A model generated the notes under the pieces. That model was not told the origin of the DNA. It saw only the letters and a list, made by a program, of their open reading frames with translations, and did no database searches. Below are positions 2,006 through 59,124 of a stretch of 64,000 bases of DNA, one piece after another. Both the position numbers and the translations under genes were made by a program. Position 1 is the stretch's first letter. The number at the start of each line of letters is the position of its first letter. Source of the DNA: Heterobilharzia americana (lineage: Eukaryota > Platyhelminthes > Trematoda > Strigeidida > Schistosomatidae); contig OX104127.1 of NCBI GenBank assembly GCA_944470555.2, positions 144,995,787 through 145,059,786 on the forward strand, read 5' to 3'.

Positions 2006-2653
2006 CAAATGCAGATCATCAATTTGTTAATCATATTTACCAAAACATGTATGTATGTTTGAGGAATACAAAAGGTTTTAAATGCTCTCCCTCCCCTCTT
2101 CCGAAAAAAGAAGAAAAAGAAACGGAACAATAAACCGTGAATTGGTCAACATTATCGAACACATGATTGAAGTCATAATGTTATTGAACACTGATCGAAC
2201 ATTAGATTACATGTAGTGAATCCTACATTAATCCATTTTGTTTTCTTTTAGCTCACTTCAACTAGTCTATAACAAAAACACGATGTTGAAATACTTGAAT
2301 AAAGTTTTCTTTCTCCCGTATTTTTCTTTTTGTATGCTTCATTGGGTTTCTTATCCAAAGAAAAATAAACAAGTTAGTTCATAAGTCGTTAAACAGGTTT
2401 CAACTTAAAGGTTTAATGGTAATGCGCTCATCACTGATAGATCTAATAATCTTCAGATCGATTCTTCATTAAATCGATCGTTGGTGTAGATTGTTGAAAA
2501 GTTCTGATCTAAAAAGAAAAATTTATTGAGTGCTCTTAGTTTTCTGAATGATTCTTCAACTGAATTTTGAGGGAGTTGTGGAGATTTGGAAATATTTCAA
2601 GTTGTTATTCATTGTAGACTGACATCAGTTGGAGGAACAATGGAAACCTGGGA

Positions 2654-2702
2654 GTACTGGACGACTGTTTCTTCCAACTAGTATGGGACTCCTCAGCAGT
2701 GT
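2654..2702 (-). ncRNA. Compact hammerhead ribozyme (family A)
   Basis: Read on the minus strand, core CTGAGGA is followed by GTCC, a loop, GGAA, then GAAA and the cleavage triplet GTC. Stem I strands are GCACACTG and CAGTAC. Stem II has lost one pair (GGAC to GGAA), so activity may be reduced. Confidence 0.65.
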
Positions 2703-3065
2703 GCACTCACGACCTGGCACCATCAGGGATAGAACCCGCGACCTTCAGGTTGCGCGTCCGGTGAGTTACCATTGAGCTACTGGGTCACAATCCAATGTTC
2801 CATATTTCCAACTCCTGCTCATTGGTGACTAGATTCAAGAAGTATTCCTGAAGTTCCAATGATAAGTCGTGACCGATGGAGTCAATGCCTGATGGTCATG
2901 AGGACCATTACTCATTGATGACATTGGGTGGCGGTTAAGCTATATTGTGAGCTAACAGAAGTTGGAAATATGGAGCATTGGTTTCTGACCCAGTGGCTCA
3001 ATGGTAACGCACTGGATGCGTAACCTGGTCTCGGGTCCGATCCCTGCTGGTGGGGTCGTGGGTGC

Positions 3066-3114
3066 GCACTGCTGAGGAGTCCCATACTAGTTGGACGAAA
3101 CAGTTGTCCAGTGC
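3066..3114 (+). ncRNA. Compact hammerhead ribozyme (family A), intact core
   Basis: Stem I is GCACTG (3066-3071) with CAGTGC (3109-3114), perfectly complementary. The core is CTGAGGA (3072-3078). Stem II is GTCC (3079-3082) with GGAC (3093-3096), followed by GAAA (3097-3100). Stem III is only ACA/TGT around two bases. Cleavage is predicted after C3108. Such a short stem III often needs a dimeric fold in known hammerheads, so activity as a monomer is uncertain. Confidence 0.8.
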
Positions 3115-3394
3115 TCCCAGGTTTCCTTTATTCCTCCAACTGATGTCAGTCTACGATGAGTAACAACTTGAAAGATTCTTCAACTGATGTCAGTCTGTCT
3201 GCAATGAAAATCAACTTGAAAACATTTCATTCGGTGTACAAAGTTGGTAAATGCTTACCTCTTGGTTTCTCTCTCTCTCCCTTTCTTCCAATGTATGCAT
3301 ATTTACTCAAGCTTTGTTAACCAGAGACAAGGGTAAACACTAAAAAGGTGTACTCAGATACAGGACAATATCTTTTTGCTTATTATTTTTATTG

Positions 3395-9400: not shown

Positions 9401-12400
9401 AGATCAATTGTAACTACGACACATTCCAAATATTTTAATATTGCATCATGGATGATGTTAATGAACATGTTTAAGGGGGAGTAACAAACGGTTTGGAAAG
9501 TCACTCCTAAAAAGCAGCATATAGTTAGCTACAAGTTATTGTAGATGATCAAAACACTCACTTTAGTTGGCCATTCTGTTTTACTCAAGTAGATTAACGA
9601 TTTCGAATAATGTGATGGTGAAATGTACTGGGTGGTAGTGGAATCCACGGCACATGTTTCATCCCATTTGGAACTTTGCAGCTGAATGTACCTGCCTCTC
9701 AGTAAGTGATATTTTCCCCACCAAGACTCGAATCCAAGATCAATCACTTCAAACACCAGAGGGTTATCCAATAGGTTAACGAGTTACGATAGCCACTATT
9801 TGTGAGACTGGTATAAGTTTGGTCTTATAGCCTACAATTTCGAACAGTATTCACGATTTTGTTATCAGACAGTGTGAAAGAGAATTATCACAGTGTATAT
9901 TCCTTCATTTGGCCTCATTGAAAAACTGTATTACTTCTGTATAACTTCATACGTAGAGTAATTGATAAGTGTCTTTATTTAGTCTAATCCTCTTCACTTT
10001 TCTTTCTTCTGATGTTACAGCCTAATGAATATCATAAAGTTGAGAAAGCTGATATATTGAATCTGTGCTACAATGTATTCAAAGGAATTGCGAATATTAC
10101 CAAAGATGAACCTGGTAAGAGATTCTTTATTGCTTCCTAGCATAAACTTTGGTGTTTTTGTTGTGGTTTTTTAACTCCAATTTTTCTTGAATAATTTTTT
10201 TGATTATCTTAAGTGGTTATTATAAAAGATGATGGGCTAAGATAGAAAGGATCTTCATACATCATAGATACTGTAGAGATGAATGAACTATAGTGATAGT
10301 TAAGCTAACAACAGTAACAGAGTAAAGTTCACCATTGTATTTTTATTCTGTATGTATCAGAAATACTTCAGACGGGATGAATAGATTGAATTATTGTCAA
10401 TGTACAAGCTGTAATTATCAAAGGGAGACACTTCATTTTCTCTACATATGGCCATCTCTGATCTGTTGTAAATTAGTAGTCAAGGTTTCATAAAGTACAT
10501 TTGATATTCTAGCTGTATCCAAATAAATATGCGATTTCTTCCGTAAATTAACTTTCAATGTATTATGTGCCTAACATGAGCCGAATTAAAGCCATTATAA
10601 ACTCTGCAAACACCTAGGTATATATTATTGATGCTTATTGTTATGATAAATGTCAAACTAGTGTCTGGGTTCGACTCCATTTAGTATCATGAATATACGC
10701 TGTTGAGGATTCTTTAACTGGTTTTTGATGAGAGCTTTTTTCAGATTGACCTGGTTGATGACTGAAGGTGAGATGAAAATATGTCTTACAGCAGGATTCG
10801 AACCATTGACCTCTGGGTCATAAGACCCAGTTGCTGCTGACTAGATCTTAATTTCACTTCAATCACTAAGGGTTTTGTCAAACTATTATGTGAATTCGTT
10901 GTGACGCGTTACTGCCACCTGATCATATTCACACTGGCTGCCTAGTCAGGACTTCTCATCGAAATCCAAATCTAAGTGAATTAGAGAGGGCGTGGAGCAT
11001 CATATTGATTATCATTTGAGTATCTGAGATAGCCATAGTTTAGTAGACTACTAATGATACTGAGTGGTCGCTGGTTCGAATCTGGCCGCGGTCCGAATTT
11101 CTATTTCACCTTCAGTCACCACCCAGTATCAATAATAGTCTACCAAACTATGGCTATCTCAGATACTCAAATGATAATCAATATGGTGCTCCACCCCCTC
11201 TCTAATTCACTTAGATTTAGATTTGGATGAGAAGTCCTGACTAGGCAGCCAGTGTGAATATGATCAGGTGGCAGTAACGCGTCACAACAAATTCACATGA
11301 GCGTTCGACAAAACCCTTAGTGATTGAAGTGAAATAAAAATCTGATCAGTAGTCGGATCTCGTAGGGGAGTTGGTAGAGCATCGGGCTGGAAACCCAATG
11401 ATCATTGGTTGGAATTCAGCCATGGTCCAAATTTTCATTTCATCTTCAATCATCACCTAGTATAAATATTAGTACTTTCATTCATGGATCGATTACAGTA
11501 AGATAAAAATCATCTAGGTTTTTTTATCAATAGCAAAAATTAAGTTTAGTGGTGGATAATGGATAGCAGTGGAATGCAGAAAGGGTGTTTCGTCCTAGTG
11601 GGCAATCATGTCGATGCAGTCGACGATGAGAATTCATAAGCCACAACATCAGAACTATGTTCTATCCATCACACAAGGAGTGGGTCTGGTTGTAATGTTA
11701 GTGGGAACATCATCATACACTAGGGTATAGGTACACCCAGCTGACGAGTCATAGATAGGACGAAACCCATATCCTGGATTCCACTGTTAACATCCGCACA
11801 GGAGCCCATTTGTCAACAGTAACCTATCAATTCGGTCCAATCAACTATGGAAATTCACAAGATATAACATAAAATATGTTTGTTCTGATGTTCTTGTATT
11901 CAGATCTGTTTTATGTTGTAATCTTGACAGAATTGGGAGCACGTCTAAGAAAATTACGTAACAATTTGAATGAAGTATCATGCCCCTCATCATCATCATC
12001 ATCAACCTCACTTGTAACGAAAAATAATTCCACTCCACATGCTGATGAAATGGATAAAAGTTTATTGAAAGTGAATGAACAAAGCAATTCGTTAGATAAA
12101 CGCCTACATCAAACACACTATCATCATAAAAACAAACAACATTCACACTTTAATACTGTCGATTTGTTCAGTACATCAACACCTTCATCAGAAACACCAT
12201 TGTTCTGTACTGATTCTAGTCGCAGAACTTCTGAAGACAATAAAGAAAATAGAATACCAAAAATCATTATAAAGAATCCTCTATCAACTACAAACTATAC
12301 AATATCTAGTCCCGTTGTTACTGATGTTAACAGTATGCGCAATGTACCTTTGACGTTTGTTGTTCCGCAATCTCTGTCATCTTCATCTGTTTTCTCAACT

Positions 12401-12922
12401 CCTCCAAGTAGAATACATCTGAGCAGTTTTAGACATCAACAGATATGTGAACCTATTACCCAATGGCAATCAACACCTTTACAATGTACTGAGAAATGTA
12501 CCTCATTGTTAAATAATTCCGAAAGTGGTTTCTTCAGTAGTCAGACAATGGAGTTAACACCGAATATAACAAAGATGTCTACATTCAATGGAAAAGATAC
12601 TAAGGTCAATGTATTGGAATTGGTTGATTCCTCTTCTATAGAAGTGTCACATACCGCATCATCATCACCTTCATTGTCATCACCATTGCCAAGAGACTAT
12701 GTATCAGCCTTCAGTAAACCAACAAAAAGATTATCTAAGGTCAACATAACCAGATCATCAGATGCATTTGTTACATCCAATGGTTATCAACACCATAATA
12801 AAACAACTAATAGTGATAGTGGTATTTGGCTTACTCCTGACACTTCTGCATCAATTGAAACTCTTCATGATGTTAAACCTACTCATAGGACTGTACCTAT
12901 GTGGAGGCCATATTTAGACTAG
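6284..12922 (+). CDS. HES (Hairy/Enhancer-of-split) type bHLH transcriptional repressor, four exons
   Basis: The coding sequence joins 6284-6487, 7729-7824, 10021-10114 and 11931-12922, giving about 461 residues. All introns are GT-AG and the phases fit (0, 0, 1). The basic region and helix 1 (MERRRRACISDKMNALHNLA) begin at about residue 74, and helix 2 carries VEKADILNL, the HES hallmark (KLEKADILE in relatives). MWRPYLD at the C-terminus contains WRPY, a Groucho co-repressor binding motif related to WRPW. HES proteins bind DNA as dimers in the nucleus and repress developmental genes. Oddities: the HES basic-region proline is replaced by Gln (KQNMERRRR), a conserved Arg is Cys (RACI), and there is no clear Orange domain. 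LGARLRKL...LNEVS after the bHLH may be its remnant. The middle is Ser/Thr-rich and looks disordered. The family call is firm; the exact orthologue is not. Confidence 0.86.
7145..7655 (-). repeat. Family C SINE, partial tandem dimer in HES intron 1
   Basis: Two minus-strand units follow one another. GATGGCGATGGTTTGACAGA at 7154 recurs as GATAGCCATGACTTGGTAGA at 7480, a period of about 326 bp. Both have tRNA-like heads (reverse complements of GAGTTGGTAGAGCATTGAG and GGTTCGAATCC). Confidence 0.75.
7729..7824 (+). CDS. HES-like gene, exon 2: basic region and helix 1
   Basis: The acceptor is AATAATAATAG|TTG at 7728/7729 behind a T-rich tract, and the donor is GAT|GTAAGC at 7825. The 96 nt encode 32 residues including MERRRRACI and helix 1. 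The phase is 0 at both ends. Confidence 0.85.
8320..8560 (+). repeat. Family A SINE with hammerhead remnant in HES intron 2
   Basis: The copy is in the sense orientation of the gene. The hammerhead core CTGAGGA (8493-8499) and GAAA are kept, and GGAC remains. Stem II is reduced to three pairs (GTCA with GGAC) and stem I is mismatched (CATACTG with CATTGC). Activity is doubtful. Confidence 0.7.
8950..9076. mobile_element. MITE-like palindromic element, copy 2
   Basis: In HES intron 2. Left arm: AAAATAACCAATCAGATTCC. Right arm: CGTAATTGGTTGTCTCAGC, then GGGGTGGAGTTTAAAG. The ends are less well preserved than in the copy at 41974. Confidence 0.55.
9620..9815 (-). repeat. Family B (Sm-alpha type) SINE, degenerate, in HES intron 2
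   Basis: The reverse complement shows GGCTATCGTAACTC..., a tRNA-like head, CACTTACTGAGAGGCAGGTA and a decayed hammerhead ending near GGATTCCACTACC. The core has mutated, so it is probably inactive. Confidence 0.65.
10021..10114 (+). CDS. HES-like gene, exon 3: loop and helix 2
   Basis: The acceptor is a pyrimidine tract ending GATGTTACAG|CCT, and the donor is CCTG|GTAAGA. The 94 nt encode PNEYHKVEKADILNLCYNVF and about 11 more residues, leaving phase 1. Confidence 0.87.
10745..11475. repeat. Family C SINE head-to-head pair forming a large palindrome in HES intron 3
   Basis: A minus-strand copy (about 10745-11070) meets a plus-strand copy (about 11070-11475). From about 10830 to 11060 the left arm is nearly the exact reverse complement of about 11120-11350, sharing for example CTGACTAGGCAGCCAGTGTG. 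The plus arm continues into a full tRNA-like head (GGGAGTTGGTAGAGCATCGG). The arms could form a roughly 230-300 bp hairpin in the pre-mRNA. Confidence 0.8.
11562..11845. repeat. Family B SINE with minus stub and plus hammerhead, HES intron 3
   Basis: A minus stub (AGCAGTGGAATGCAG...TTTCGTCC) is followed by a plus copy with GGTACACCCAG, the hammerhead and the family B tail (CATCCGCACAGGAGCCCATT, AATTCGGTCCAATCAAC). It ends about 90 bp before the exon 4 acceptor. Confidence 0.7.
11733..11779 (+). ncRNA. Hammerhead ribozyme (family B) in sense orientation within HES intron 3
   Basis: Core CTGACGA (11741-11747); stem II is GTC with GAC in the ATAGATAGGAC segment; GAAA at 11762-11765; cleavage triplet ATC, C at 11773. 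Stem I is CCAG with CTGG. All core bases are present. Stem II and the outer stem I have mismatches. Confidence 0.65.
11931..12922 (+). CDS. HES-like gene, exon 4: C-terminal region with WRPY
   Basis: The acceptor TAATCTTGACAG|AATTGG restores the frame: G from exon 3 plus AA gives Glu. About 330 residues follow to TAG at 12920, rich in Ser/Thr, with an SSSSSS run and KENRIPKIIIKNP, ending MWRPYLD. The open frame extends 5' of the acceptor to 11876, but that part is probably intron. Confidence 0.85.
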
Positions 12923-13490: not shown

Positions 13491-13598
13491 AAGTATTCAA
13501 AAATTAAATTTTGAGGGAGTTGTAGAGATTTGGAATTATTTCAAGTTGTTATTCATTGTAGACTGACTACCAGTTGGAGGAATAAAGGAAACCTAGGA

Positions 13599-13647
13599 GT
13601 ACTGGACAACTGTTTCGTCCAACTAGCATGGGACTCCTCAGCAGTGC
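13599..13647 (-). ncRNA. Compact hammerhead ribozyme (family A), intact core
   Basis: On the minus strand: GCACTG, CTGAGGA, GTCC, loop, GGAC, GAAA, CAGTTGTC, CAGTAC. Stem I has one mismatch (GCACTG with CAGTAC); everything else matches the family consensus. Confidence 0.75.
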
Positions 13648-13810
13648 GCACCCACGACATCGCACCATCAGGGATCGAACCCGCGACCTTCAGGTTCCAC
13701 GGCAAGCGCGTTACCATTGAGTCACTGGGTTAGAATCCAATGCTCCATATTTCCAACTTCCGCAACCTGAAGGTCGCGGGTTCGATCCCTGCTGGTGGGG
13801 TCGTGGGTGC

Positions 13811-13856
13811 GCACTCCTGAGGAGTCCCATACTAGGACGAAACGGCTGTCCAGTGC
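13811..13856 (+). ncRNA. Compact hammerhead ribozyme (family A)
   Basis: CTGAGGA at 13817-13823, stem II GTCC/GGAC with a seven-base loop, GAAA at 13839-13842, cleavage after C13850, 3' stem I CAGTGC. The pair next to the core in stem I is C-C, because GCACTG has become GCACTC. Confidence 0.7.
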
Positions 13857-14596
13857 TCCCAGGTTTCCTTTGTTCCTCCAACTGATGTCAGTCTACAATG
13901 AATAACAACTTGAAGTATTCAAAAATGTTTATTTTTTTGTGATAATATGTTAAAGAGCACGATTATTTTGTACCAGAGTGAACTACCTGTTGAATCTCTG
14001 AGACCAATCAGTTAATGTATGTAACACATTCCCATAAAACTCACAATTTAATATTTAACATTCTGAAGTTATGAGATTTGTAGAACAAGAAGAATAAAGT
14101 GAAAAGTTTGAGGAATGTAAGATGCAGTAGAAAAAAAAAGAATAACGCACGACAAATTCCTTTGATTTTTCGTGGTTTAGACTGAATAATCTGAGAAAAT
14201 GTATTCCACTATAGTTTATATTTCTTTCACACACGTCAGATATACGATTAATGCGTGAGAAATGGACCACAACACTTGACGTCATTTCGTCTTTTTCTTC
14301 CCTTTCTCCAAGCAGCTGCAGTTTTAGTGGACAATGGTGGTGGTGGTGGTGATGAGCCATTTCAATGAGGACGGCATACAAATAGATCGTTTACATTAAC
14401 GAATACACATAGGCGTATATCATGCATCAAGTGATTGAGTTAACACTTTCAGTTCACATAAAGCCACGTACGAAATTTCACCACTAATTTTGGTTATCAG
14501 AAAAAACCAAAATATATCACGTTCTCTAGAATTCTTTTTTCCTTTCCTATGTGATGATAACGACCGTGTCCTGAAAAGAGTACTGAAAACTGTCAG

Positions 14597-16088: not shown

Positions 16089-17676
16089 ATGAACATCACA
16101 ATCAACCAAATGATCTCTGGAAAAATTGAAGACTTAGCCATGATACTTTTTGACAAAGATGATGAAATAGTGCTTCTGAACAAATTATTCATTGCATCAG
16201 ATAGAAACACAAAACATACAGTTCAGAAAGACCCTGTGGATGAAACAGAGCGTCAATTGTCCAGTATATTGATGAAGATTAAGCAGTTATCAGCAATAAA
16301 CTCTATGAACAATTCCATCCATCAGGTTCCTCGATCCCTCAACTATATGATCTATTTAGATTGAACAAAAAAGGTGGTTCCCCCTCGTCTAATATTAGAC
16401 ATGACTCATTCAGTTGCAAAATGATTCGTCAAGATCCTGGATCCAGTGAAGGATGAAATTTTGAAACATAGTCTGTATGATACATTTAATGCTGGGTATG
16501 ACGTTAATTTCTATGATTACGATTTTAATAAATGTTGAGTTGATAAAATACAATTGGTGTTAATTAAAGAACCGCTGAAAGCTAGAGAGCATTAGACAGC
16601 TATCATGGCTGGACTCAAAACATCCTATAGGATCGACCTTAAGACTGTTATCTTTGTTAGTGAGCATGCTGTCATAGGTCTACTTCCCAACTTCCATCAA
16701 TTCACTATATATCACTATTAATCAATGTTATTAATGAGAGTCCATGTTCCCTTTTGAATTGGCAGGAAATTCATTCCAAAACTACTCTTTAATTAGTACT
16801 GTGAGGTTGATCAAATTCTCATAAACTAGCAAATCGAGTAAACTTTTCCCGACAAATGGTATACTGCAAAGGTTCATCATTGAAAACAGCATGTGGAGTG
16901 GTACCTACTTGAATTCTAATAGCTAACTAGAGAGGGGAATTAGTTAGAACTCTATTTTACAGAGTTAAGATGATATAAAATGGCCGAAGAGTTAGGAACA
17001 ACTGAAAGATGCTCACAAGACGATGGATATCCATAAGGATTTCTGAACAGATATGGAAAAACAGAAGACAAACTGTCGACGAAATTTATAGTCAATAGTC
17101 CTTTTCGTCAGAATCAAAGGTAATGATGTTACAGGAAACATTAACGGAAGACTGAAGGCGTCATTGGCTAGAACTTTCCCTTCAAGCGTCTTAATTCCTG
17201 TGTTATCAAACAATGTGCTATTTAGCCCAGTCAGAAGTCGACGGGTACCCTCCCTCTGTATATATCAATTTATGTGTAGCTGCCAAGGCAGATACATTGC
17301 AAGAACAGAAAGAAGCGTTTTTCTCAGATTCCCTGAAAGCATTTCGGAAAGCCTACAACTGAAGGGAAGTAACAGTCTAAACACCGCTATCATTCAGCAT
17401 CTGGTTGACACTGGACATCAAGCAGATATCTTCATTTCTTTCAAGATATTAAACAAACGAATGAGCTCAATTCTCCTGAAGTTTACTGATACCACAGTCA
17501 TAAGACGCCTCAAATCTGACTTATGTGTTCACAAAGAAGCTAAAATCAACCTCCAATCTACCTTGATAACCTGTCTTGACAATTATTTGATAACGTCATC
17601 CTTTATCGCTTTTAGATGTTTATTCCTTCATTCTTATTTAGTTGCGTCATCTTTTATTCATACTGAATGTTTCTAA
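16089..17676 (+). pseudogene. Penelope-like retroelement relic: reverse transcriptase and GIY-YIG endonuclease
   Basis: Penelope-like elements encode an RT followed by a GIY-YIG endonuclease. The 16089-16364 frame resembles the N-terminal RT region (KDPVDETERQLSSILMKIKQ). An overlapping frame then gives HPSGSSIPQLYDLFRLNKKGG, and after a shift VPPRLILDMTHSVAK and LDPVKDEILKHSLYDTF, matching the conserved LYGLPKIHK, VPLRPILDM and following blocks. The middle palm is badly eroded. The 17164-17676 frame carries the linker and endonuclease: YQFMCSCQGRYIARTERSV, then AIIQHLVDTGHQ and LKSDLCVHKEA. The diagnostic YIG is YIA here. Frameshifts and stops mean it cannot make an intact protein. The assignment rests on motif order read by eye. 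Confidence 0.78.
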
Positions 17677-17828: not shown

Positions 17829-18324
17829 ATTTACCAATCTTCGCATTTCGTCCTATTTGGGACTCGTCAGCTGGATGTACCTGCTTCCCAGTGAGTGATG
17901 TTGTTCCCATTGGGACTCGGACTCGGGAGCGATCGCTTCAAACGCCAGCGCGTTATCCACCACACCACCGAGCCACGATAGCCACTTCTTGTGCAACGGG
18001 TATAGGTTTTAGTGTTGTTGCTTGTAGCATCGTGGCTCGGTGGTGTGGTGGATAACGCGCTGGCGTTTGAAGCGATCGCTCCCAAGTCCGAGTCCCGGTG
18101 GGAACAACATCACTCACTGGGAAGCAGGTACATCCAGCTGACGAGTCCCAAACAGTACGAAATGCGCATCCTGGATTCCACTGCCCATCATTACTAAACA
18201 TAGTTAAAAGACAGGCCATATCGAGGTATCCGTATAGGAGCCCATATGCCAACAGAGACTGAATAATTCGGTCCAGTCAACGACGGTGTAATACAAGCAA
18301 TAACACTAAAATTTACCAACCTTC
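17829..18324. mobile_element. Family B (Sm-alpha type) head-to-head composite with 14-bp flanking repeats
   Basis: ATTTACCAATCTTC (17829-17842) and ATTTACCAACCTTC (18311-18324; one mismatch) flank a minus copy (17843-18025) joined to a plus copy (about 18026-18310). Both arms have a tRNA-like promoter (TGGCTCGGTGG A box; GTCCGAGTCCC B box), and their shared part is nearly identical. The outer end of the minus arm lies within the hammerhead, a few bases short of the expected cleavage point. The plus arm runs through the hammerhead to the family tail. Confidence 0.82.
18132..18176 (+). ncRNA. Hammerhead ribozyme (family B, Sm-alpha type)
   Basis: Stem I is ATCCAG (18132-18137) with CTGGAT (18171-18176), perfect. 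The core is CTGACGA (18138-18144). Stem II is GTCC with GTAC, one mismatch against the usual GGAC. GAAA is at 18159-18162, stem III is the ATGCGCAT self-complement, and cleavage is after C18170 (triplet ATC). This matches the described Schistosoma hammerhead design. Confidence 0.8.
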
Positions 18325-18745: not shown

Positions 18746-18959
18746 TCACTTCTGTGCAAAATAATTTTTTATATTTTATACTGTGATAAACTCATGTTCA
18801 TGAAATATGAACTTCTAAAGTTATTTGGAAATTTCTACCTATATTAGTGGTCGTTTGATAAACTTTCATCCTTCACTTTTGAGCCAAAAAGGAATCTGCA
18901 TCACAAGTTGTTATTCATTGTAGACTGACATCAGTTGGAGGAACAAAGGAAACCTGGGA

Positions 18960-19008
18960 GTACTGGACAAATGTTTCGTCCAACTAGCATGGGACTCCTC
19001 AGCAGTGC
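18960..19008 (-). ncRNA. Compact hammerhead ribozyme (family A)
   Basis: Minus strand: GCACTG, CTGAGGA, GTCC, loop, GGAC, GAAA, CATTTGTC, CAGTAC. All core bases are present and stem I has one mismatch. Confidence 0.72.
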
Positions 19009-19347
19009 GCACCCACGACCCCGCACCATCAGGGCTCGAACCCGAGACCTTCAGGTTGCGTGGCCAGCGCGCTGCCACTGAGCCACTGGGTCAGAATCCA
19101 ATGCTCCATATTTCCAACTTCTGTTAGCTCACGATATAGCGTAACCGCCACCCAATGTCATCATTGAGTAACTGTCCTCACGACTTCTCATTGGAACTTC
19201 GGGAATACCTCTCGAAGCTAGTCACCAATGAGCAGAAGTTGGAAATATGGACCAATGAATTCTGACCCAGTGGCTCAATGGTAACGCACTGGACGCGCAA
19301 CCTGAAGGTCACGGGTTCCATCCCTGATGGTGCGGGGTCGTGAGTGC

Positions 19348-19396
19348 GCGCCGCTGAGGAGTCCCATGCTAGTTGGACGAAACAGTTGTCCAGTGC
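19348..19396 (+). ncRNA. Compact hammerhead ribozyme (family A)
   Basis: Core CTGAGGA (19354-19360), GTCC/GGAC, GAAA, cleavage after C19390, 3' stem I CAGTGC. The 5' stem I strand is GCGCCG, giving one mismatch and one wobble. Confidence 0.7.
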
Positions 19397-19712
19397 TTCC
19401 AGGTTTCCTTTGTTCCTCCAACTGATGTCAGTCTATGATGAATAACAACTTGTATTCCCAACAAACCTCGAAACTGAAATAATGTCCCAATGATCATTAA
19501 TGACGTGTTTCTGGATGAGGTCTCCTGAAATTTTAGTGATAAGTCATGACTTCGATGGTATTTAATGAAGGTTGCTCTATTTCGTGAATTGACAAGAAGA
19601 AGTAGGAAAATGTGGACGAATGGATTTTGACTTCGTGGCTGAATGGCAACGCGCTGGCCACGCAACCTGAAGGTCTCGGGTTCGATCCCTGATGGTGCGA
19701 GGTCGTGGGTGC

Positions 19713-19761
19713 GCACTGCTGAGGAGTCCCATGCTAGTTGGACGAAACAGTTGTCCAGTAC
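19713..19761 (+). ncRNA. Compact hammerhead ribozyme (family A)
   Basis: GCACTG (19713-19718), CTGAGGA (19719-19725), GTCC, loop, GGAC (19740-19743), GAAA (19744-19747), cleavage after C19755, CAGTAC. There is one mismatch in stem I. Confidence 0.75.
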
Positions 19762-19860
19762 TCCCAGGTTTCCATTGTTCCTCCAACTGATGTCAGTCTA
19801 CAATGAATTACAACTTGAAATATTTCCAAATCTCCACAACTCCCTCAGAATCCACATCTC

Positions 19861-23334: not shown

Positions 23335-24533
23335 ATTGGTAGGTAGTGTCCCAAGCGTTTATCAACCGCATTCAACAGCTGCATGCTGTATAATGCTACA
23401 CGAAAAGTGGTTGACGATAGAAAGCTCAGTGATGCCTTTGAAGTGAGGACAGGCAGGAGTAAGACAAGGTTGCCACCTATTATTACCGATGATCTTCCTG
23501 ACTGTGTTCAATTGTCAGGAGCAAAAAGAGGGGTATACTCTGAGTGGTTGGACCGATAAAAAGATCCAACAAGATTTGAACTTCACCAATGATGATTCAT
23601 GTATGGTGTCATATGTTACACAAAATTGTAGATATATAGGCGAAAACTAACAAGATGGTAGAAGAGGCTGGTCAACGGAGACGACAATTCCTTCAAGTGA
23701 ACGTAGAGAAGACAGAAGTGATGGAGATAGTCAAACAACAATAATACTAATAATAATACTGATAATAATAATAAGAAGCACCAATTACCAATCACCATCA
23801 ACGGGAGAAGTCTAAACGAGGTTGTCTCTTTCACCCACCCATCTACCTAGCTAAGCAGCATCGTTTCAACTACAGGCGGCAGAGTCGGTGGCGTCACACA
23901 TGAGGATGTCAAAGCAGCCAGCAGTGGAAAATCAGACAACACAGGCCTTCCTACATTAATGTGAAATCAGTGTGCAGATGTACTGCACTGGATTGCACTG
24001 CATTGCACTGCACAGCACAGCACTGCACTGCATTGTACTGCACTGCACTTCACCCAGCATAAAGCGTCAACAACATCCTCATTTTCAACACCAAGTCAGT
24101 CAAGTCAAGTCAAGTCAGGTGAAGTGAAGTGAAGTAAGTCAGTGCTTCTATGTGATGGTTGAGAGTGAGACTTGGCGCATTGTGGAAAGCATTTCCAACA
24201 AGCTGGAAAGATGCATGAAGCAACAATTGCCACCTACACTCACTCGATACTGAAGGTGAGATGAGATGAGATGAGATGAGAGGGTGAGGAAGAACAAGCA
24301 AGAAGGAAGTGTGGCTGGCTGGCTTTCAGTCCAAGTCAGGTCGTTGAGTGGAACTAGAGGTGAAATGACGAGTTTGGCATCTGGTGGTGTTGACATGGAG
24401 GAGAGGTTGTGAGGAATGAATGGGAGCTTGTGGGGAGTGGTGGATGCAGGTTAAGATGACTGGAGGGAAGAGGGTGAAATGACGATGTGCTACTGAAGCC
24501 GTATGTTCCATTAGGAATCCAAGGGACAAATAG
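23335..24533 (+). pseudogene. RTE-like LINE-derived repeat, copy 1
   Basis: The 5' part translates in broken frames to RT palm remnants (KLSDAFEVRTG, RSKTRL). A segment follows where the FADD catalytic motif of RTE-like RTs should be. After that comes ITINGRSLNEVVSFTHPS, matching the region downstream of the catalytic site. The 3' half has GCACT-type, AGTCA, GATGA and TGGC tandem runs and ends at CCAAGGGACAAATA. It is clearly non-functional. Confidence 0.75.
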
Positions 24534-24549
24534 TAATTAATTTTCCAGG

Positions 24550-25215: not shown

Positions 25216-25423
25216 CAGTTAGATTGTTTTATAAAACATTAGTTGACAGTTATGTGAATGTTTCTATTGTGAGGAGATGACAACCAACTCGACCGAACGC
25301 ATAACAATGGAGCTTTAGGGTGTGGCATGGTGAGTCAGTATCACATAAGATCAGTAATCCAGAATTTCAAGTTGTTATTCATCGAAGACTGACATCAGTT
25401 GGAGGAACAAAGGAAACCTGGGA

Positions 25424-25472
25424 GCACTGGACAGCCATTTCGTCCAACTAGTATGGGACTCCTCAGTAGTGC
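25424..25472 (-). ncRNA. Compact hammerhead ribozyme (family A)
   Basis: Minus strand: GCACTA, CTGAGGA, GTCC, loop, GGAC, GAAA, TGGCTGTC, CAGTGC. The core is intact; the stem I pair next to it is A-C. Confidence 0.72.
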
Positions 25473-25965
25473 GCACCCACCACCCCACCAGCAGGGATCG
25501 AACCCGCGACCTTCAGGCTCCGCGGCCAGCGCGTTACCATTGAGCCACTGGGTCAGAATCCAATGCTCCATATTTCCAACTTCTGTTAGCTCACGATATA
25601 GCGCAAACCGCCACCCAATGTCATCGTTGAGTATTTGTCCTCACGGCCATCAGGCTTTGACTCCACCGGTCACGACTTGTCATTGGAACTTCGGGAATAC
25701 TTCTCGAAGCTAGTCACCAACGCGCACTAGTTCAATTAAATTTTGAGGGGGTTGTGGAGATTTGGAAATATTTCAAGTTGTTATTCATCGTGAGGACAAA
25801 TACTCAACGATGACATTGGGTGGCGGTTTGCGCTATATCGTGAGCTAACAGAAGTTGGAAATATGGAGCATTGGATTCTGACCCAGTGGCTAGCTCAATG
25901 GTAACGCGCTGGTCGCGGAACCTGAAGGTCTCGGGTTCGATCCCTGCTGGTGGGGTGGTGGGTTC

Positions 25966-26014
25966 GCACTGCTGAGGAGTCCCATACTAGTTGGACGAAA
26001 TGGCTGTCCAGTGC
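25966..26014 (+). ncRNA. Compact hammerhead ribozyme (family A), intact core
   Basis: GCACTG/CAGTGC stem I is perfect. CTGAGGA at 25972-25978, GTCC/GGAC, GAAA at 25997-26000, cleavage after C26008. Stem III (ATG...TGT) relies on wobble pairs. Confidence 0.78.
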
Positions 26015-26254
26015 TCCCAGGTTTCCTTTGCTCCTCCAACTGATGTCAGTCTTCGATGAATAACAACTTGAAATATTTCCAAATCTCCACAACCCCCTCA
26101 AAATCCAGAATTTATTGATTTTACATCTATCAAACTATTAGACTTTATTCAAGAAGTGTCAGTCAAAGTGGTTTTCATCCATTTTCAAAGTAAGTAGAGT
26201 ATACGGATTGATTAGTTACGGGAGAGCAACCAGTTTCATGTTGTCTATTCCTGA

Positions 26255-29084: not shown

Positions 29085-29887
29085 GCTATGAGGAGCAAGA
29101 AGAGGGTATACGCTGAGTGGTTGGACAGATGAAAAGATCCCACAAGATTTGAACTTCATCAATGATGATTTATGTATGGTGTCTTATGTTACACAAAATT
29201 GTAGATCTATAGGCGAAAACTAACAAGATGGTAGAAGAGGCTGGTCAACGGAGACGGCAATTCCTTCAGGTGAACGTAGAGAAGACAGAAGTGATGGAGA
29301 TAGTCAAACAATAATAATACTACTAATAATAATAATAAGAAGAAGAAGCACCAGTTACCAATCACCATCAACGGGAGAAGTCTAAACGAGGTTGTCTCTT
29401 TCACCCACCCATCTACCTAGTTAAGCAGCATCGTTTCAACTACAGGCGGCAGAGTCGGTGGCGTCACACATGAGGATGCCAAAGCAGCCAGCATCGGAAA
29501 ATCAAGCAACACAGGCCTTCCTAGATTAATGTGAAATCAGTGTGCAGATGTACTGCACTGCACTGGATTGCACTGCACTGCAATGCACTGCATTGTACTG
29601 CACTTCACTCAGCATAAACCGTCAATAACATCCTCATTTTCAACACCAAGTCAGTCAAGTCAAGTGAGGTCAGGTGAAGTGAAGTGAAGTGAAGTGAAGT
29701 AAGTCAGTGCTTCCATGTGATGGTTGAGAGAGAGAGAGACTTGGCGCATTGTGGAAAGCATTTCCAACAACTGGAAAGATGCATGAAGCAACAGTTGCCA
29801 CCTACACTCACTCGATACTGGAGATGAGATGAGAGGGTGAGGAAGAACAAGCAAGAAGCAAGTGTGACTGACTGACTGACTGACTGA

Positions 29888-29918
<31 letters not shown>

Positions 29919-30256
29919 ACTAGCTGGCTACAAACCAACCAACCAACCAACCAACTAAGAAACAATCACCCAACAAATATGCAGTTCAAGTAAATGGAGA
30001 TGGATTTGATTGGGCAGACACTGGGTAGAAGATTCGGGTACATCATGTGTCAGTTCAGGTCAGGTCCTCGAGTGGAACCCAGAGGTGAAATGACGAGTTT
30101 GGCGTCTGATGGTGTTTATATGGAGGAGAGGTTGTGAGGAAGAAATGAAAGGTTGTGGGGAATGGTGGATGCAGGTTAAGATGACTGTAGGGAAGAGGGT
30201 GAAATGACGATGTGCTACTGAAGCCGTATGTTCCATTAGGAATCCAAGGGACAAAT
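29085..30256 (+). pseudogene. RTE-like LINE-derived repeat, copy 2
   Basis: Close relative of the copy at 23335. It starts at GAGGAGCAAGAAGAGGG and shares the altered catalytic segment (DLNFINDDLCM in place of the usual LDFADDL), the ITINGRSLNEVVSFTHPS segment and the 3' end CCAAGGGACAAATA. The tandem runs differ in length; (TGAC)n-(TGGC)n and (CCAA)n are well developed near 29870-29955. Confidence 0.75.
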
Positions 30257-30477
30257 AAATAATAATCTCATGATTGTTCATATTTTTAAGTAGAAAAACT
30301 TACTGTTACATACAGGTTATATTTGCCTAAATCGTATGACTTTATGATAGATCGAGTTCACAACCCTTCGACCTTATATCCCACAACTGGTGTGAAACCC
30401 AAGGATTCGCGTTTTCGTTTTGACGATGTAGTGTGACCATCGCCAATTGCATTGGCCTGTATTTGTTTTCACATTAG

Positions 30478-32915: not shown

Positions 32916-34749
32916 TGGAGATTTTCAGTAACTCCTGATCTCATCTGAGTTCATGGTAAAAACTATCTTGAAAAAGCAATCACTTCAAATTCAAATTAGA
33001 CTAAATTTGTATGGGTCAACATTCAGCATAACCTAGTTGTGAATATGGATCTCACTTCTGAAGCTTGATCGTGCTTATGGGTGATCAGAATGCATGCCAT
33101 CGTGGATAACGGAACTACAATGCATAGATGACACAAGTGATATCTTCATAGCAAACAACAAGTTTTCTCTGTCATCTCAGATGCATAGCTTTATTTTTTC
33201 AACGTGTGATGACTGATGGATGTGTGACAGATGATGTTTTGTCAGCCACTTACTGAAAGCCAGAATGATGTCAGCCAATTTGGATCACTTCTTTCTGCCA
33301 CCATTCTGACGTTAACCTTGTTGTAAAAGGTCAGTTATGCAACGTATAAGGGTGAGTAGTTCTACCTTCCACCTGTACAGACTAACCTTTCCGAATTGAG
33401 TTTGTCTGACAACTCTGCATTTTCAACCGTCGTTGTCTCTGTAGGATTACTCAGATCCATTTGAAGGATTACATGAATAATTCTGTGGAGAGACGATATG
33501 TATTTGGCTGTGGTGGAGATAGTCGTTCGTTGAGTGTAGGTTATCTGTAAACACTGGCTTGAACATATCTTTCCAGTGACTTTCGTACGCCTCACTGTTT
33601 GCTTGCTCTGGGACTGGTTACAAGAAGCAGAGAGACAGTCAGTGTACAACTTGGCACCATGGGAAGCAGGATGATTGTGTTAGGTTATTGTCTGTAGGCG
33701 GTTCAAGACACTCTGGACGGAGTTCGAGAGATCATACAACTCACTGACTTGAGGCAATAGAAGACATGACCCACGATCGATATCAGTGGCGGTCATTCTT
33801 CGGTTTTCGTTTCATCTATAATCGAAAAGCAAAAAGGAATGTAGTGGATAGTTCTTTGAATGTTTCTTTGTGACTGCTTATTTCATAAACCATTTCTATC
33901 TTACCTTTATAATCGTTTCCTTTTCTTCTTTCTATATTGCTTCTGCATCGTTTTAGTTCGAATGCATTATTCTGTATAACCGAGATCTTGATGTATATAT
34001 TGTAGCAAATGGTATTTGAAGTCAATAAATAAAGTATCGAGCATGACTACTTGTGTCAGACTTTCCAAAGCTACTTCGGCAGCTGATTATACAAAACACC
34101 ACTGAACTAAAAGTGAACTTCTTTGATGCAGATGAATCTAATAAATTCCAGTCACTTCTTGGGCAACTACGTTAGTTGTCTAATGAAGTGTACTTATAAA
34201 CAAAAAGGTGGTTCCTAATGCGATCATAAATTCACCTTAATACACTAAAGTATCCTGTCCTTTCGAAATACCGTGACATCGGATAGTTAGTCATCATTCG
34301 ACTGAAAGACACTGGGATGTGTTTCTTAATTGTCAATACTAATTGTAAGAGTTTTTTTACAAACTCTATCTGACAAGTTCACTTTTAAGGTGTTTGACTA
34401 ATGATCAATGCAATATGCTTCTGTATGTATGTATGTAAGGGTTCAGCCTGTTGTATATGTATTGCTGTGTGCCAAAAAACAGGGCAAATGAGTCAGAATT
34501 TTCAGCCAGTTCTTCGCATCCACTCAAGGCCTTCTAGACAAGGGCGGTGAATAACAGAAAGCGTAGAGTATGTCTTAGAGTAACACTGCATATACCTCAG
34601 CAGAATAAACGAAGTTACACTTGACTAAGGCGGTGAAATTGTCTGGTAAAAATGGCTACAGAATGTTTAAGCAGATGGGAGTTGGAGTATCAGGAACTTA
34701 GCCGAAAGAATGTGCGTATAAAGGTCATTTTTGCGAAAACATTTTTTTA
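32916..34749. other. Long stretch without supported genes
   Basis: A minus ORF of 95 codons (33362-33649) matches no family I recognise. Some of 33000-34050 and 34490-34740 has a less AT-rich, repeat-like look and may be decayed retroelement sequence. No motif supports a specific call. Confidence 0.35.
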
Positions 34750-35155
34750 GCTCACGATATAGCGCAAACCGCCACCCAATATCATCGTTGAGTATTTGTC
34801 CTCACGGCCATCAGGCTTGACTCCAACGGTCACGACTTGTCATTGGAACTTCGGGAATGCTTTTCGAAGCTAGTCATCAATGAGCACCAGTTCGTGAGCT
34901 AACAGAAGTTGGAAATATGGAGCATTGGATTCTGACCCAGTGGTTCAATGGTAACGCGCTGGCCGCGGAACCTGAAGGTCACGGGTTCGATCCCTGGTGG
35001 GGGGGTCGTGGGTGCGCACTGCTGAGGAGTCCCATGCTAGTTGCACGAAACAACTGTCCAGTGCTCCCAGGTTTCCTTTGTTCCTCCAACTCATATCAGT
35101 CTACAATGAATAACAACTTGAAATAATTCCAAATCTCCACAACTCCCTCAAAATT
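34750..35155. repeat. Family A SINE: minus 5'-region fragment joined to a full plus copy
   Basis: The minus part (about 34750-34893) contains only the 5' region (reverse complement of GAAGCTTCG...CGATATAGCG). The plus part (about 34893-35155) has a tRNA-like head (TGGTTCAATGG; GGGTTCGATCCCTGG), hammerhead and full tail to CCCTCAAAAT. Confidence 0.78.
35016..35064 (+). ncRNA. Compact hammerhead ribozyme (family A), one stem II mutation
   Basis: GCACTG/CAGTGC stem I is perfect. CTGAGGA at 35022-35028 and GAAA at 35047-35050; cleavage after C35058. Stem II is GTCC with GCAC, one mismatch. Confidence 0.72.
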
Positions 35156-35794: not shown

Positions 35795-36248
35795 ACATAG
35801 AATATATTAGTATTATTGCTTGTATTATATCGTCGTTAATTGGACCGAATTGATTGGCCTCCATTGGCATATGGGCTCCTGTGGGGATACCTCGATATTA
35901 TCGGTGTTTTTAGTTGTAGTAGTGGTTAGCAGTGGAATCTGGGATGCGCATTTCGTACTATTTGGGACTCGTCGGATGGATGTACCTGCCTCCCAGTGAG
36001 TGATGTCGTTCCCACCGGGATTAGGACTCAAGAGCGATCGCTTCACACGCCAGCGCGTTGTCCACTACACCACCGAGCCACGATAGCCACCTTGTGTGCA
36101 ACGAGTATAGTTTTAGTCCGAATCCCGGTGGGAACAACATCACTCACTGGGAGGCAGGTATATCCAGCTAACTTGTCCCAAATAGTACGAAATGCGCATC
36201 CTGAATTCCACTGCTAGCCACTACACATCATTACTACATAGAATATAT
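35795..36248. mobile_element. Family B head-to-head composite with 13-bp flanking repeats
   Basis: ACATAGAATATAT at 35795-35807 and 36236-36248 brackets a minus arm (35808 to about 36117, from family tail through hammerhead to promoter) joined to a short plus arm (about 36118-36235). The plus arm begins inside the B box and ends beyond the hammerhead at GCTAGCCACTACACATC. Both ribozymes are damaged: CCGACGA on the minus strand, CTAACTT on the plus strand. Confidence 0.82.
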
Positions 36249-37075: not shown

Positions 37076-37663
37076 CCTGATATATTGTTAATGATGGATC
37101 ATGGCTAGCAGTGGAATTCAGGGTGCGCATTTCGTATTATTTGGGACTCACTCGTCAGCTGAATGTACCTGCTTCCCAGTGAGTGATGTTATTCCCACCG
37201 GGATTAGGACTCGGGAGTGATCGCTTCAAGCGCCAGTGCGTTTTCCACTACACCACCGGGTATCCGCACATGAGCCCATATACTAATAGAGACCGGTCAA
37301 TTCGGTCCAATCAACGACGGTATCATATAAAAAACAATTATACTAGAACTATATCCGTCGCACAAGAAGTGGCTATCGTGGCTTGGTGGTATAGTGGATA
37401 ACGCGCTGGCGTTTGAAGCGATCGCTCCCCAGTCCGAATCCCCGTGGGAACCACATCCATCTGACGAGTCCCAAATAGTATGAAATGCGCATCCTAGATT
37501 CCATTGCTAGCCATGATCCATCATTAACATAATTAGAACGTTAGCAATATCGTGGCATCCGCACAGGAGCCTTTATTCTAATAGAGGCCAATCAATTTGG
37601 TCCAATCAACGACGGTATCATATAAAAGCAATTATACTAAAAACCTGATATATTGTTAGTGAT
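37076..37663. mobile_element. Family B composite: minus arm plus tandem plus-strand units, with flanking repeats
   Basis: CCTGATATATTGTTA occurs at 37076-37090 and 37644-37658, and similarity continues for five more bases with one mismatch. Inside are a minus arm (about 37096-37258) and a plus segment of about 1.3 units. TATCCGCACATGAGCCCAT at 37261 recurs as CATCCGCACAGGAGCC at 37556, a 295-bp period. A tail, a complete unit (promoter, hammerhead) and a second tail are therefore consecutive. Confidence 0.82.
37455..37499 (+). ncRNA. Hammerhead ribozyme (family B), weakened
   Basis: Core CTGACGA (37461-37467), then GTCC, loop, GTAT where GGAC is expected, GAAA, stem III ATGCGCAT, cleavage after C37493. 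Stem I is ATCCAT with CTAGAT and has mismatches. Confidence 0.6.
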
Positions 37664-37900: not shown

Positions 37901-38289
37901 TCTGTTAAAAGTTGGTGAGAATCAAAGCATAGAAGTTTATCTAATGTGAAGTTATTCCTGACACTGTTATTCAGTTATCTCACTCATTTGGCTACTTTAG
38001 ATACTTCGACTTATTCAGTGTAGGAGGTACAAAGAATTGAATGAATCAGTGTAAGTGATAAACAAAAATAATCCTTATAATTTAGAGGGGAATTTCTAAT
38101 TCAAACACGAGTTGGTTGATTTTGCGAAATTATCAACGGAAGTTTTATGATTGTACTTAGGCCGTTTGACGCTTCAGTCGATATACATTAGTGAGATTTA
38201 CTTCTTGACTGATGAAACTCATGTATAAGTAGATAAAAATTGAAACGAGAATGATTCATTACTATATATTGACAGACTTGTTATTCTCC
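37901..38289. other. AT-rich stretch, nothing recognised
   Basis: No supported gene or repeat. Confidence 0.4.
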
Positions 38290-38375
38290 GTTGTTTTGTT
38301 CGATCGAATTGTTCCACGTCTATTGGCATATGGGCTCCTATGCGGATACCATGATATTGCCTGAATGTTAAGTAT
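38290..38375 (-). repeat. Family B SINE tail fragment
   Basis: Contains the reverse complement of the tail (GGCATATGGGCTCCTATGCGGATACC). Confidence 0.65.
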
Positions 38376-38894
38376 GATAAATTGGTTGATTCAATTGGGA
38401 AAACTACTACACATTTAATTTTACATATGGTAGTGACAAGCGGTGAGATTGAAGACTTGAGTTTTGTTTATTTTGGCACTAAGCGAAATATGCCTTCATC
38501 CTGGAGAATACTAATATGTGTCATTTCTGACACTGAGTATTTATTCATAAGTCCGTAGAAGGTGACAATAAGCCAACAGAGACTGGTCAATGTATTTCTG
38601 TAAACAAATGAATAGGAAAGATCAAAACTCTAATAAATAATCTACACTTCTTCATGCCGTAAAACTATATATATTATAAATAACATAAACTCGCCAATTA
38701 TATATCTCAGTTTTTAGGCAAGTATTGACTTGGAACTACCTAACGGTACAACCTATAATTTGTCAAAATAGAAATTTATTCACAGAAGACGCCTAGGAAG
38801 ATTTTCTTTATGAGGAAACATATGGCCTGGTGAGAAACATGTTTCGAAACTAATATACTACTAACGGTGTATTAGGTCTGTTTATACGAATAGA

Positions 38895-40320: not shown

Positions 40321-40770
40321 TATTGATTTGGCCATCATTTTGTACACTCAAGTTGGCGTATACATAACCAAATGAAAATTCAATCTTTTTTTATCACACG
40401 AATCAGTGTTTAAATTATCCATAATAAAAGGATCCAATACGGGCATAATGACTATTATTATCATTATTAAATAGGCCATAAAATGAAATGACCAGTTGAA
40501 CAAATTTAATCATACTAAATCAGACAGAATGAGAGAATAGTTTATATTTACACTAGAGAAATCAATTTTTTATCTGACCTTGTTAAATAACTGATAAATC
40601 ACTGTCTTATCTGAACTACTCAGATAAATATCTTACCATAGAGCACAGAAAATTGTTTCATATAAGGGTAACTTTATTAAGTAGTCAGTCATTTCTGTGG
40701 TGAAGAAAATCTCCCAGATATATTTAGCATCTAAAGTTACTATTGATTATTTACACTTGGTTGTTTGACT
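40321..40770. other. AT-rich stretch, nothing recognised
   Basis: No supported gene or repeat. Confidence 0.45.
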
Positions 40771-41601
40771 AATCTTAATATCATTTTGGCTATCTGAGAT
40801 GGTCGTAGTTTGGCAGACTAGTTAGTATTTATGCTAGGTGATGATTGAAAGTGGAATGAAAATTTGGACAGCAGCTGGATTCCAACCAGCGACCACCGGG
40901 TTTCCGATGCAATGCTCTATCAACCAATCTACGAGGTTCAACTGTTGACTAGATTTTTATTTCACTTCAATCACCAAGGTGTTTACTCAACTGCTGCAAG
41001 AATTCGTGACGCGTTACTACCACTTGATCGTACTCATACTGGCTGCTCAGTCATGACGTCTCATCCCAATCCAGATCTACTTAAAATAGAGGACAACATC
41101 GTATTGATTATCCTTTTGACTATTTGAGTGAGATAGCCGTGATTTGGTAGACTAGTATTGATACTAAGTGATGACTGAAGGTGAAATGAAAATTTGGATG
41201 GCTGTCGGATTCGAATCAGCGGCCACCAGGTTTTCAACCACGGTCATCATCCAGTATCAATACTAGTCTACTAAATCACGGCTATCTCACTCAGATGGTC
41301 AAAATGATAATCAATATGATGCTCTCCTTCTCCAATTCAGTTCGGTTTGGTGTGAAATGAGAAGTCCTGATTAGGTAGCCAGTGTGAATACAATCAAGTG
41401 GTAGTAATGCATCACGAGTTCACATGGTAGTTAAGCAAAACCCTTAGTGACTGAGATGAAATTAAGATATGGTCAGCAGTCAGACGTCATCAATCAGTTG
41501 GTAGACCATCGATTCGGAAACCTGGTGGTAGCTGATTGGAATCCGGGTGAGGTGCAAATTTGTATTTCAACTTCAATCATCAACCAGTATAATCTTAATA
41601 T
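40771..41601. mobile_element. Family C head-to-head composite with 11-bp flanking repeats
   Basis: AATCTTAATAT at 40771-40781 and 41591-41601 flanks a minus arm (40782 to about 41245) joined to a plus arm (about 41245-41590). The minus arm spans more than one unit, because two tRNA-like heads are visible. The plus arm ends in a tRNA-like head and tail (ATCAATCAGTTGGTAGACCA, TTCAATCATCAACCAGTAT). This shows the pairing is not limited to ribozyme-bearing families. Confidence 0.78.
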
Positions 41602-43309: not shown

Positions 43310-43790
43310 ACGGACAAGCATCAGCCTGATAACCTTTTAAAACCTTGTAGCACTGCAACACTGATTCGTCCTAGTATGTTCCTTAAGCACAGTGTCCATT
43401 ACTGATATAAATCGAGATGAATATCTAGAAGTGCTAATGAATAGCATCGTGTGATATGTGGCGCAAACCAGTCGAAAGTCAAGTGGATGTCAAGTAAAGA
43501 CATTCATGCATACTCACATTATATCACGAATTGATACATGTAGAATATTCTGCAACAGTGAACTCCAACCAACTGACCGGATGGTCAACACATTCATCAT
43601 GAAAACTAAACGTCCTGACACTGATCTCTGACTGAGTCGTGGCTGCACACTACTCACCAATCCCATGTACGATGTCACACCTACCCATCACTCCCAAGAC
43701 TTAAACAAACATCAGATTCATGTCACTCCAGAATGAAGACCACCTCGAAATAAATTAAATCCTCATAAACATCTAATCACATATAATATA
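43310..43790. repeat. Family A SINE remnants straddling the left edge of the large inverted repeat
   Basis: A minus remnant (about 43310-43400) is followed by a plus remnant (about 43400-43790) with the older tail GACCACCTCGAAATAAATTA. The inverted-repeat boundary at about 43463 falls inside the plus copy's 5' region. Confidence 0.6.
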
Positions 43791-59022: not shown

Positions 59023-59124
59023 TGTACAATAATAGAGAAAAGTTCAAATGTAAGTAGTTCAGAAAGCTGCAAAATTAATCGGATTTCAGCAAAATTAAAA
59101 ATGATCTCAAGAAGTGATAAACCA

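Follow-up and report, generated by a model that had tools for sequence, protein, structure and literature searches.

The window analysed here is a stretch of 64,000 nucleotides of Heterobilharzia americana DNA (positions 144995787-145059786 of its contig, in an assembly of 664.9 Mb and 337 contigs), and it contains copies of a short repeat, family A, together with two further repeat families, B and C. The family A unit of about 406 nt consists of a tRNA-like part, recognised by eye, followed by a type I hammerhead (RF00163), with the cleavage site placed near unit position 304, and then by about 65-100 nt leading to the 3' end. The A/B-box-like tRNA strings are visible by eye; ARAGORN reported zero tRNA genes in the window. 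Alignment of the arms revealed two 3' ends, separated by about 32 nt: a short end (S, unit positions ~363-376) finishing in ...CAACTTGAA, and a long end (L, ~398-406) that runs about 32 nt further and finishes in CTCAAAAT. This double end, overlooked by an earlier, sequence-only reading of the window, is the main clue of the present analysis. The segment between S and L showed no stem-loop beyond that of shuffled sequences (z -0.30), and an exact-pattern search for the family A hammerhead in viral and prokaryote collections returned none.

Three family A pairs were described in the sequence-only reading as minus-then-plus arrangements with the 3' ends outward, each pair bracketed by one direct repeat. 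This layout holds for all three pairs, and the repeats are exact to the base and lie where they had been placed. In pair 1, the 14-bp repeat GATTCTTCAACTGA occupies 2550-2563 and 3174-3187 (both on the plus strand). The minus arm (2564-2817) has its L 3' end at the left, is truncated at about unit position 149 and gave no Rfam hammerhead match, and the plus arm (2810-3173), a nearly full unit with its S 3' end at the right, contains a type I hammerhead at 3066-3114 on the plus strand (RF00163, 40.4 bits). Pair 2 lies between exact plus-strand copies of AAGTATTCAAAAAT at 13491-13504 and 13913-13926, with a minus arm ending at L (13505-13760; minus-strand RF00163 hammerhead at 13599-13647) and a plus arm ending at S (13766-13912; plus-strand RF00163 hammerhead at 13811-13856). 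Pair 3 is flanked by exact plus-strand copies of AATCCAGAATTT at 25356-25367 and 26102-26113. Its minus arm, with an S end, is more than one unit long (25368-25790; minus-strand RF00163 hammerhead at 25424-25472), the 5' end of a unit at about 25733 abutting the tail of the preceding unit, which extends to 25790. Its plus arm, with an L end (25789-26104; plus-strand RF00163 hammerhead at 25966-26014), has its final bases in common with the duplication.

Older family A arrangements were also observed. A composite at 18904-19853 comprises a minus arm with an S end (18904-19240), a plus arm (19233-19461) and an extra plus unit with an L end (19572-19853). By eye, it appears to be flanked by an imperfect 9/12 repeat (GAATCTGCATCA at 18892, GAATCCACATCT at 19848), and a 10-bp match is located 17-21 bp beyond its edges. 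The head-to-head join of this composite (19233-19240) is common to pair 1 (2810-2817), in opposite orientation and with unshared flanks, which suggests that copying or conversion of a whole composite took place once. At the edges of the older pairs located near 22.5, 39.8 and 61.7 kb, no repeat of at least 8 bp is present; the pair at 61.7 kb has a 10-bp match about 20-26 bp beyond its edges. A separate family A piece at 34747-35154 has its 5' and 3' parts in opposite orientation, in a twin-priming-like manner, with no repeat of at least 8 bp at its edges, and a similar arrangement was found at locus L002 of the genome sample described below.

Composites of family B, a hammerhead repeat that we take to resemble SMalpha, and of family C, a tRNA-like repeat, differ in sequence from family A yet carry a similar scar. 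Exact repeats of at least 12 bp were present in three of the seven composites checked: two head-to-head family B composites at 35795-36248 (13 bp, ACATAGAATATAT, at both ends, 35795/36236) and 37076-37658 (15 bp, CCTGATATATTGTTA, at both ends, 37076/37644), and a head-to-head family C composite at 40770-41601 (12 bp, TAATCTTAATAT, 40770/41590). The remaining four gave 10 bp (right edge uncertain), 9 bp, 8 bp and none. Since family C bears this kind of scar and showed no Rfam hammerhead, pair formation is probably not due to the ribozyme. In a family B pair at 17829-18320, with a 9-bp repeat ATTTACCAA at 17829/18311, the minus arm stops, by eye, a few nucleotides before the hammerhead cleavage site, and it is possible that copying started there at a ribozyme-made RNA end.

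The window also contains a near-perfect palindrome (43426-53531) with multi-kb arms that are 98-99% complementary and 855 nt apart, including 46122-48047/48903-50828 and 43426-44916/52041-53531, among others; it represents either an inverted duplication of recent origin or a fold-back of the assembly. A dispersed repeat of about 1 kb occurs at 23531-24541, 29104-30266 and 58328-59030 in blocks that are about 90% identical, and a 349-aa open frame at 11873-12922, with no Pfam match, is possibly a host exon.

Orientation, 3' ends and target sites in the genome sample

Two DNA queries, one including the long end and one without any tail, yielded 30 family A loci each from the best 40 of 4172 and the best 40 of 3558 candidates, respectively. 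Sampled copies are mostly young, as only the best-scoring candidates were scored, and the first query is biased in that it contained the long end. Once repeats of one site were removed, the 60 loci represented 53 distinct insertions: 41 head-to-head (minus then plus), 12 in a single orientation and none tail-to-tail. The single-orientation counts are upper bounds, given that L005, scored as single, appears on visual inspection to have a very short minus arm, only a few bases long, at the left. The pair had been proposed as the normal mode of insertion; it is indeed the usual outcome (41/53), though not the sole one (12/53).

The arms of a pair rarely end alike. One S and one L end were found in 37 of the 41 pairs of this best-scoring sample, the exceptions being L035 and L040 (S/S), L022 (L/L) and L002 (one internal end). 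In the tail-free sample, the 18 two-armed insertions comprised 16 S/L and 2 S/S, a distribution with P 5.5e-4 if the ends were independent; in the long-tail sample, 22 pairs had a terminal end on both arms, and the partner end was S in 21 of them (P 4.5e-5). As far as the open-licence literature shows, this almost strict pairing of a short with a long end appears to be new.

The comparison of flanking repeats around pairs and around single copies, proposed in the sequence-only reading, was run on this sample. Exact direct repeats of at least 10 bp surround 36 of the 37 S/L pairs, compared with 2 of the 12 single-orientation insertions and 0.3% of 672 swapped-flank combinations. Duplication length has its mode at 12 bp, with exactly 12 bp in 19/37 S/L pairs, although these lengths may include bases common to the element ends or, in L021, to a simple repeat. 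Among the four pairs outside the S/L pattern, a clear duplication (12 bp) was observed in L040 only.

Target preferences were analysed in 33 rebuilt empty sites, taken from S/L pairs with 10-14-bp repeats and oriented by the S arm. A was present at -3 in 25/33 and at -2 in 20/33, and T at +2 in 22/33 and at +3 in 20/33; AAY precedes 15 and RTT follows 14 of the 33 sites, compared with 4.8% and 4.7% of random places. Position -1 was C in 18/33 and +1 was G in 18/33, but choosing the longest repeat partly fixes these two positions, so the target claim rests on -3, -2, +2 and +3. The resulting AA...TT pattern around an AT-rich repeat reads the same on either strand, as one would expect of a single enzyme cutting both. 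An AT-rich target cut on both strands is a feature of Penelope-like element (PLE) insertion, and at the sequence level these sites show a matching pattern.

For the empty-site comparison, the joined flanks of 42 entries were matched against the window and the 60 loci; since pairs 1 and 3 each appear twice, these entries stand for 40 distinct insertions. An uninterrupted counterpart, paralogous and not allelic, was identified for 7 of the 40 insertions (L012, L014, L015, L024, L029, L058 and pair 1), the weaker matches being 67-77% identical. The host repeat of L024 is uninterrupted in L046 (95% over 379 positions), L020 (90% over 374) and L030 (82% over 400), with the 12 bp present once. The host of L029 is a family B copy, uninterrupted in L041 (90% over 127), at 38267-38391 of the window (88% over 125) and in others, and that of pair 1 is an older family A tail.

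Joins, templates and competing explanations

Each of the 41 joins has a unique pair of unit positions within the genome sample. Microhomology of at least 2 nt was found at 26/41 joins (15% expected) and of at least 3 nt at 17/41 (5% expected). Joins were taken from BLAST ends, and the few apparent fillers (L032, L051) are unrecognised tail sequence, which makes this count conservative. In the 37 S/L pairs, S arms span 26-866 nt and L arms 83-766 nt, and 21 of the 74 arms exceed one unit, passing from the long tail into the start of the next unit. Between units of the same arm, 7 of 71 informative comparisons were discordant (23/125 with gap-prone sites), and the family A template may be a circle or a tandem transcript. 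A pile-up of inner ends at the hammerhead cleavage site was weak, with 17/94 at unit positions 305-350 against about 11 expected.

Together with the single duplication and the paralogous empty sites, these joins make one insertion event per pair the best fit, as the sequence-only reading had held. Several rival routes to such a structure have to be weighed. The least unlikely of these rivals is fold-back or self-priming, in which a cDNA or antisense RNA primes on itself and one arm serves as template for the other, or an inverted duplication arises after insertion; self-priming from palindromes at the junction was proposed for bdelloid PLEs in the available text of PMC3846280. Arms are indeed more alike within a pair than between pairs: at 12 informative sites in 22 pairs, 23 of 152 within-pair comparisons were discordant, compared with 31% between different pairs (46/267 in 27 pairs, compared with 37%, when four gap-prone sites were added), and 11 of the 22 pairs had zero discordance. 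However, 6 of the 22 (L026, L029, L030, L031, L035 and L042) differ at two or more informative sites, so that half of the pairs fit one RNA species while several seem to need two. The arms of pairs 1 and 2 are only 88.1% and 91.3% identical, despite perfect 14-bp duplications, where unlinked copies in the window average 90.8%, and by eye their subfamily indels differ between arms. The different 3' sites of the two arms, S and L, in 37/41 pairs also speak against copying of one arm from the other, which we regard as improbable.

The sequence-only reading likened the pairs, with both primers placed at element 3' ends, to LINE-1 twin priming, in which two primers give an inverted arrangement with a microhomology join and one duplication, as in family A. 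On a strictly LINE-1-type account, a LINE enzyme would nick one strand and a second primer would enter the RNA internally, leaving the 5' part inverted. Classically, tRNA-like SINEs depend on LINEs, and L002 and the piece at 34747-35154 do look as if the 5' part had been inverted relative to the 3' part, but both cases are without a clear duplication. Twin priming leaves the element 3' end on one arm only, unlike family A, where both S/L arms have it outward; duplications cluster at 12 bp, and a PLE copy of this genome has the same layout. With a symmetrical target pattern as well, the likeness to LINE-1 is not borne out, and a LINE-driven origin is very unlikely.

We give an equally low probability to a ready-made palindromic element moving as a unit, in a fold-back or MITE-like manner. 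The join shared by pair 1 and the 19-kb composite, in opposite orientation and with unshared flanks, is what such an element would leave, yet the 41 sampled joins all differ in unit positions and the S/L arms vary from 26 to 866 nt. Two separate neighbouring insertions, for which the abundance of copies would supply chance neighbours, can be practically dismissed in view of the one duplication per pair, the microhomology joins with no flank between the arms, the 41 head-to-head against 0 tail-to-tail arrangements and the paralogous empty sites with neither arm.

Penelope-like elements as the probable mobiliser

PLE-like reading frames were detected in 12 of the 60 loci (tblastn, E 1e-3 or better). 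The window contains a decayed PLE-like GIY-YIG/C-terminal fragment at 17092-17673 (plus strand), a relative of the presumed mobilising enzyme, which matches the PLE-like copies of these 12 loci by tblastn. Although it has no Pfam match of its own, it aligns, more weakly than a fragment in L065, over the stretch of database protein P0066 that Pfam calls GIY-YIG. A protein search with the window ORF alone gave nothing at E 0.001. With the L014 copy as query, 331 relatives were retrieved; among the 120 listed, the best was a Trichobilharzia szidati protein (64% identity), RT and/or PF26215 domains were present, and two proteins were named GIY-YIG, one of these with the Pfam domain. Among the matches listed, PLE-type proteins from one locus match schistosomatid flukes best. 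The L014 copy itself has an RT match just below the Pfam cut-off, Pfam found no domain in the L065 and L067 fragments, and none of the genome's own tested fragments gave GIY-YIG; these PLEs are putatively of the GIY-YIG type, by alignment to P0066.

As far as can be read from the DNA, the layout of family A recurs in one or more of this genome's PLE copies. The copy in L061 has inverted arms, 98% identical over 379 bp, pointing outward in head-to-head arrangement around a reading frame, with a 12-bp duplication (AATTGTTTATTT at 1999 and 3789) and one arm about 25 nt longer. This case is clear, and those of L062 (9-bp repeat, long left and short right end) and L063 (repeat of about 8 bp, agreeing layout) were established partly by eye; L064 and L067 showed no clear duplication. 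A PLE with family A's own S/L end was not found in this material, the ends of the L061 and L062 PLEs being other sequences. Family A insertions were observed within or near the PLE copies in L063, L064, L065, L066 and L067.

We therefore favour, with a probability of roughly 0.85, the reading that a PLE enzyme inserts family A, which is a short retroelement without coding capacity and belongs with the animal retrozymes or hammerhead SINEs. At about 406 nt, its unit is too short for an RT plus GIY-YIG frame, so it would be at most a non-autonomous client of such an element. The head-to-head pair is best explained as what one PLE-type insertion event usually leaves. We infer the PLE as the enzyme, its dimeric state, the 3'-overhang cut and the order of the steps as follows. 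A dimeric endonuclease would make one cut in each strand, with a spacing of 12 bp, at an AT-rich target that is roughly palindromic, and two 3' ends would result. Both of these would serve as primers for reverse transcription of family A RNA, the first starting at S and the second at L, about 32 nt downstream. Each copy would extend a variable distance, at times beyond one unit into the next; the two cDNA ends would be joined head to head, mostly via a few bases of microhomology, and fill-in would yield a single duplication of the 12 bp, enclosing the pair as a unit. The features that this scheme accounts for (paired arms, S/L asymmetry, one duplication, microhomology joins, multi-unit arms, target symmetry and paralogous empty sites) appear in the sequence itself. 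Priming on both strands at element 3' ends, with the cDNAs joined at their 5' sides, had already been suggested and is the best fit, with the correction that the arms end at different 3' ends, one about 32 nt longer. Against the PLE scheme stand the four of 41 pairs outside the S/L rule, the 12 of 53 single-orientation insertions, and the join common to pair 1 and the 19-kb composite, which it does not predict. The differing ends of the L061 and L062 PLEs, the L064 and L067 copies with no clear duplication, the negative Pfam result for GIY-YIG in the genome's own fragments and the in vitro behaviour of the purified PLE described below also weigh against it.

Comparable structures are known from PLEs. 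In the accessible portion of Arkhipova et al. (2013, PMC3846280), PLEs with pseudo-LTRs are described as having inverted pLTRs, of which head-to-head is the commonest arrangement, together with a single duplication and a tail of 31 bp that one pLTR may carry. Family A resembles them in its inverted head-to-head terminal copies, its single duplication and its tail of about that length on one copy, and differs from the PLEs of that text in being without a reading frame and in having mostly 12-bp duplications. One tail per pair is a near-rule in family A, whereas in those PLEs it is optional, and the same text has its authors favouring self-priming. The Anolis Poseidon PLE (PAc) protein cuts and extends both strands in vitro, from two start sites that bound a tail (Frangieh et al. 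2024, PMC11167929). The likeness to family A includes an AT-rich target in which both strands have ATT, RNA-internal start sites that bound the genomic tail, and a hammerhead upstream of these sites (PMC11167929). For this only purified PLE, start site did not differ with strand in vitro, whereas family A insertions apparently use one site per strand.

The sequence-only reading regarded the arrangement as undescribed as the usual mode of a hammerhead SINE. We found no prior description of head-to-head hammerhead SINEs in the open-licence literature, and to that extent the statement stands; as a claim of general novelty it fails, since PLEs are known to make such structures (PMC3846280, in the part available, and PMC11167929). 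What would be new, as far as the same literature shows, is a PLE-type scar on a hammerhead SINE, the S/L near-rule, the 12-bp symmetric target and possibly arms from different RNAs.

Retrozymes are recognised as short repeats that code for no protein but contain a type I hammerhead, and by their tandem units; family A has both characters, the tandem units being carried by 21 of the 74 arms. In the available text of Cervera and de la Pena (2020, PMC7229834) and of the review PMC7761336, metazoan non-LTR retrozymes are tandem, non-coding units of about 170-400 nt with type I hammerheads, as family A is in kind; that text gives no insertion structure for them. SMalpha of Schistosoma mansoni is likewise given as a SINE-like family with a type I hammerhead (Ferbeyre 1998, as reported in the accessible text of PMC8490949). 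As excerpted, both retrozyme sources name PLEs as a strong or likely candidate mobiliser on the basis of common hammerheads, tandem copies and co-occurrence (PMC7229834, PMC7761336), and the review adds that retrozymes have no conserved motif from which the autonomous element moving them could be recognised (PMC7761336). Head-to-head pairs with paired S/L ends may be this missing trace of the mobiliser.

A broader generalisation, which we hold with evenly divided confidence, is that PLE-type insertion is intrinsically asymmetric, with a two-subunit enzyme making a palindromic cut staggered by 12 nt and assigning one strand to S and the other to L in each event, often from two RNA molecules, and that all animal hammerhead SINEs ride on it. 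Arms made from two templates would count against the view that PLE-type inverted repeats generally arise by self-priming, and the one-short/one-long rule would be a constraint on the PLE mechanism beyond what in vitro work showed. Which element mobilises animal hammerhead retroelements is a question raised in the available text of PMC7229834 and PMC7761336, and PLE-like scars make it testable in any genome with hammerhead repeats.
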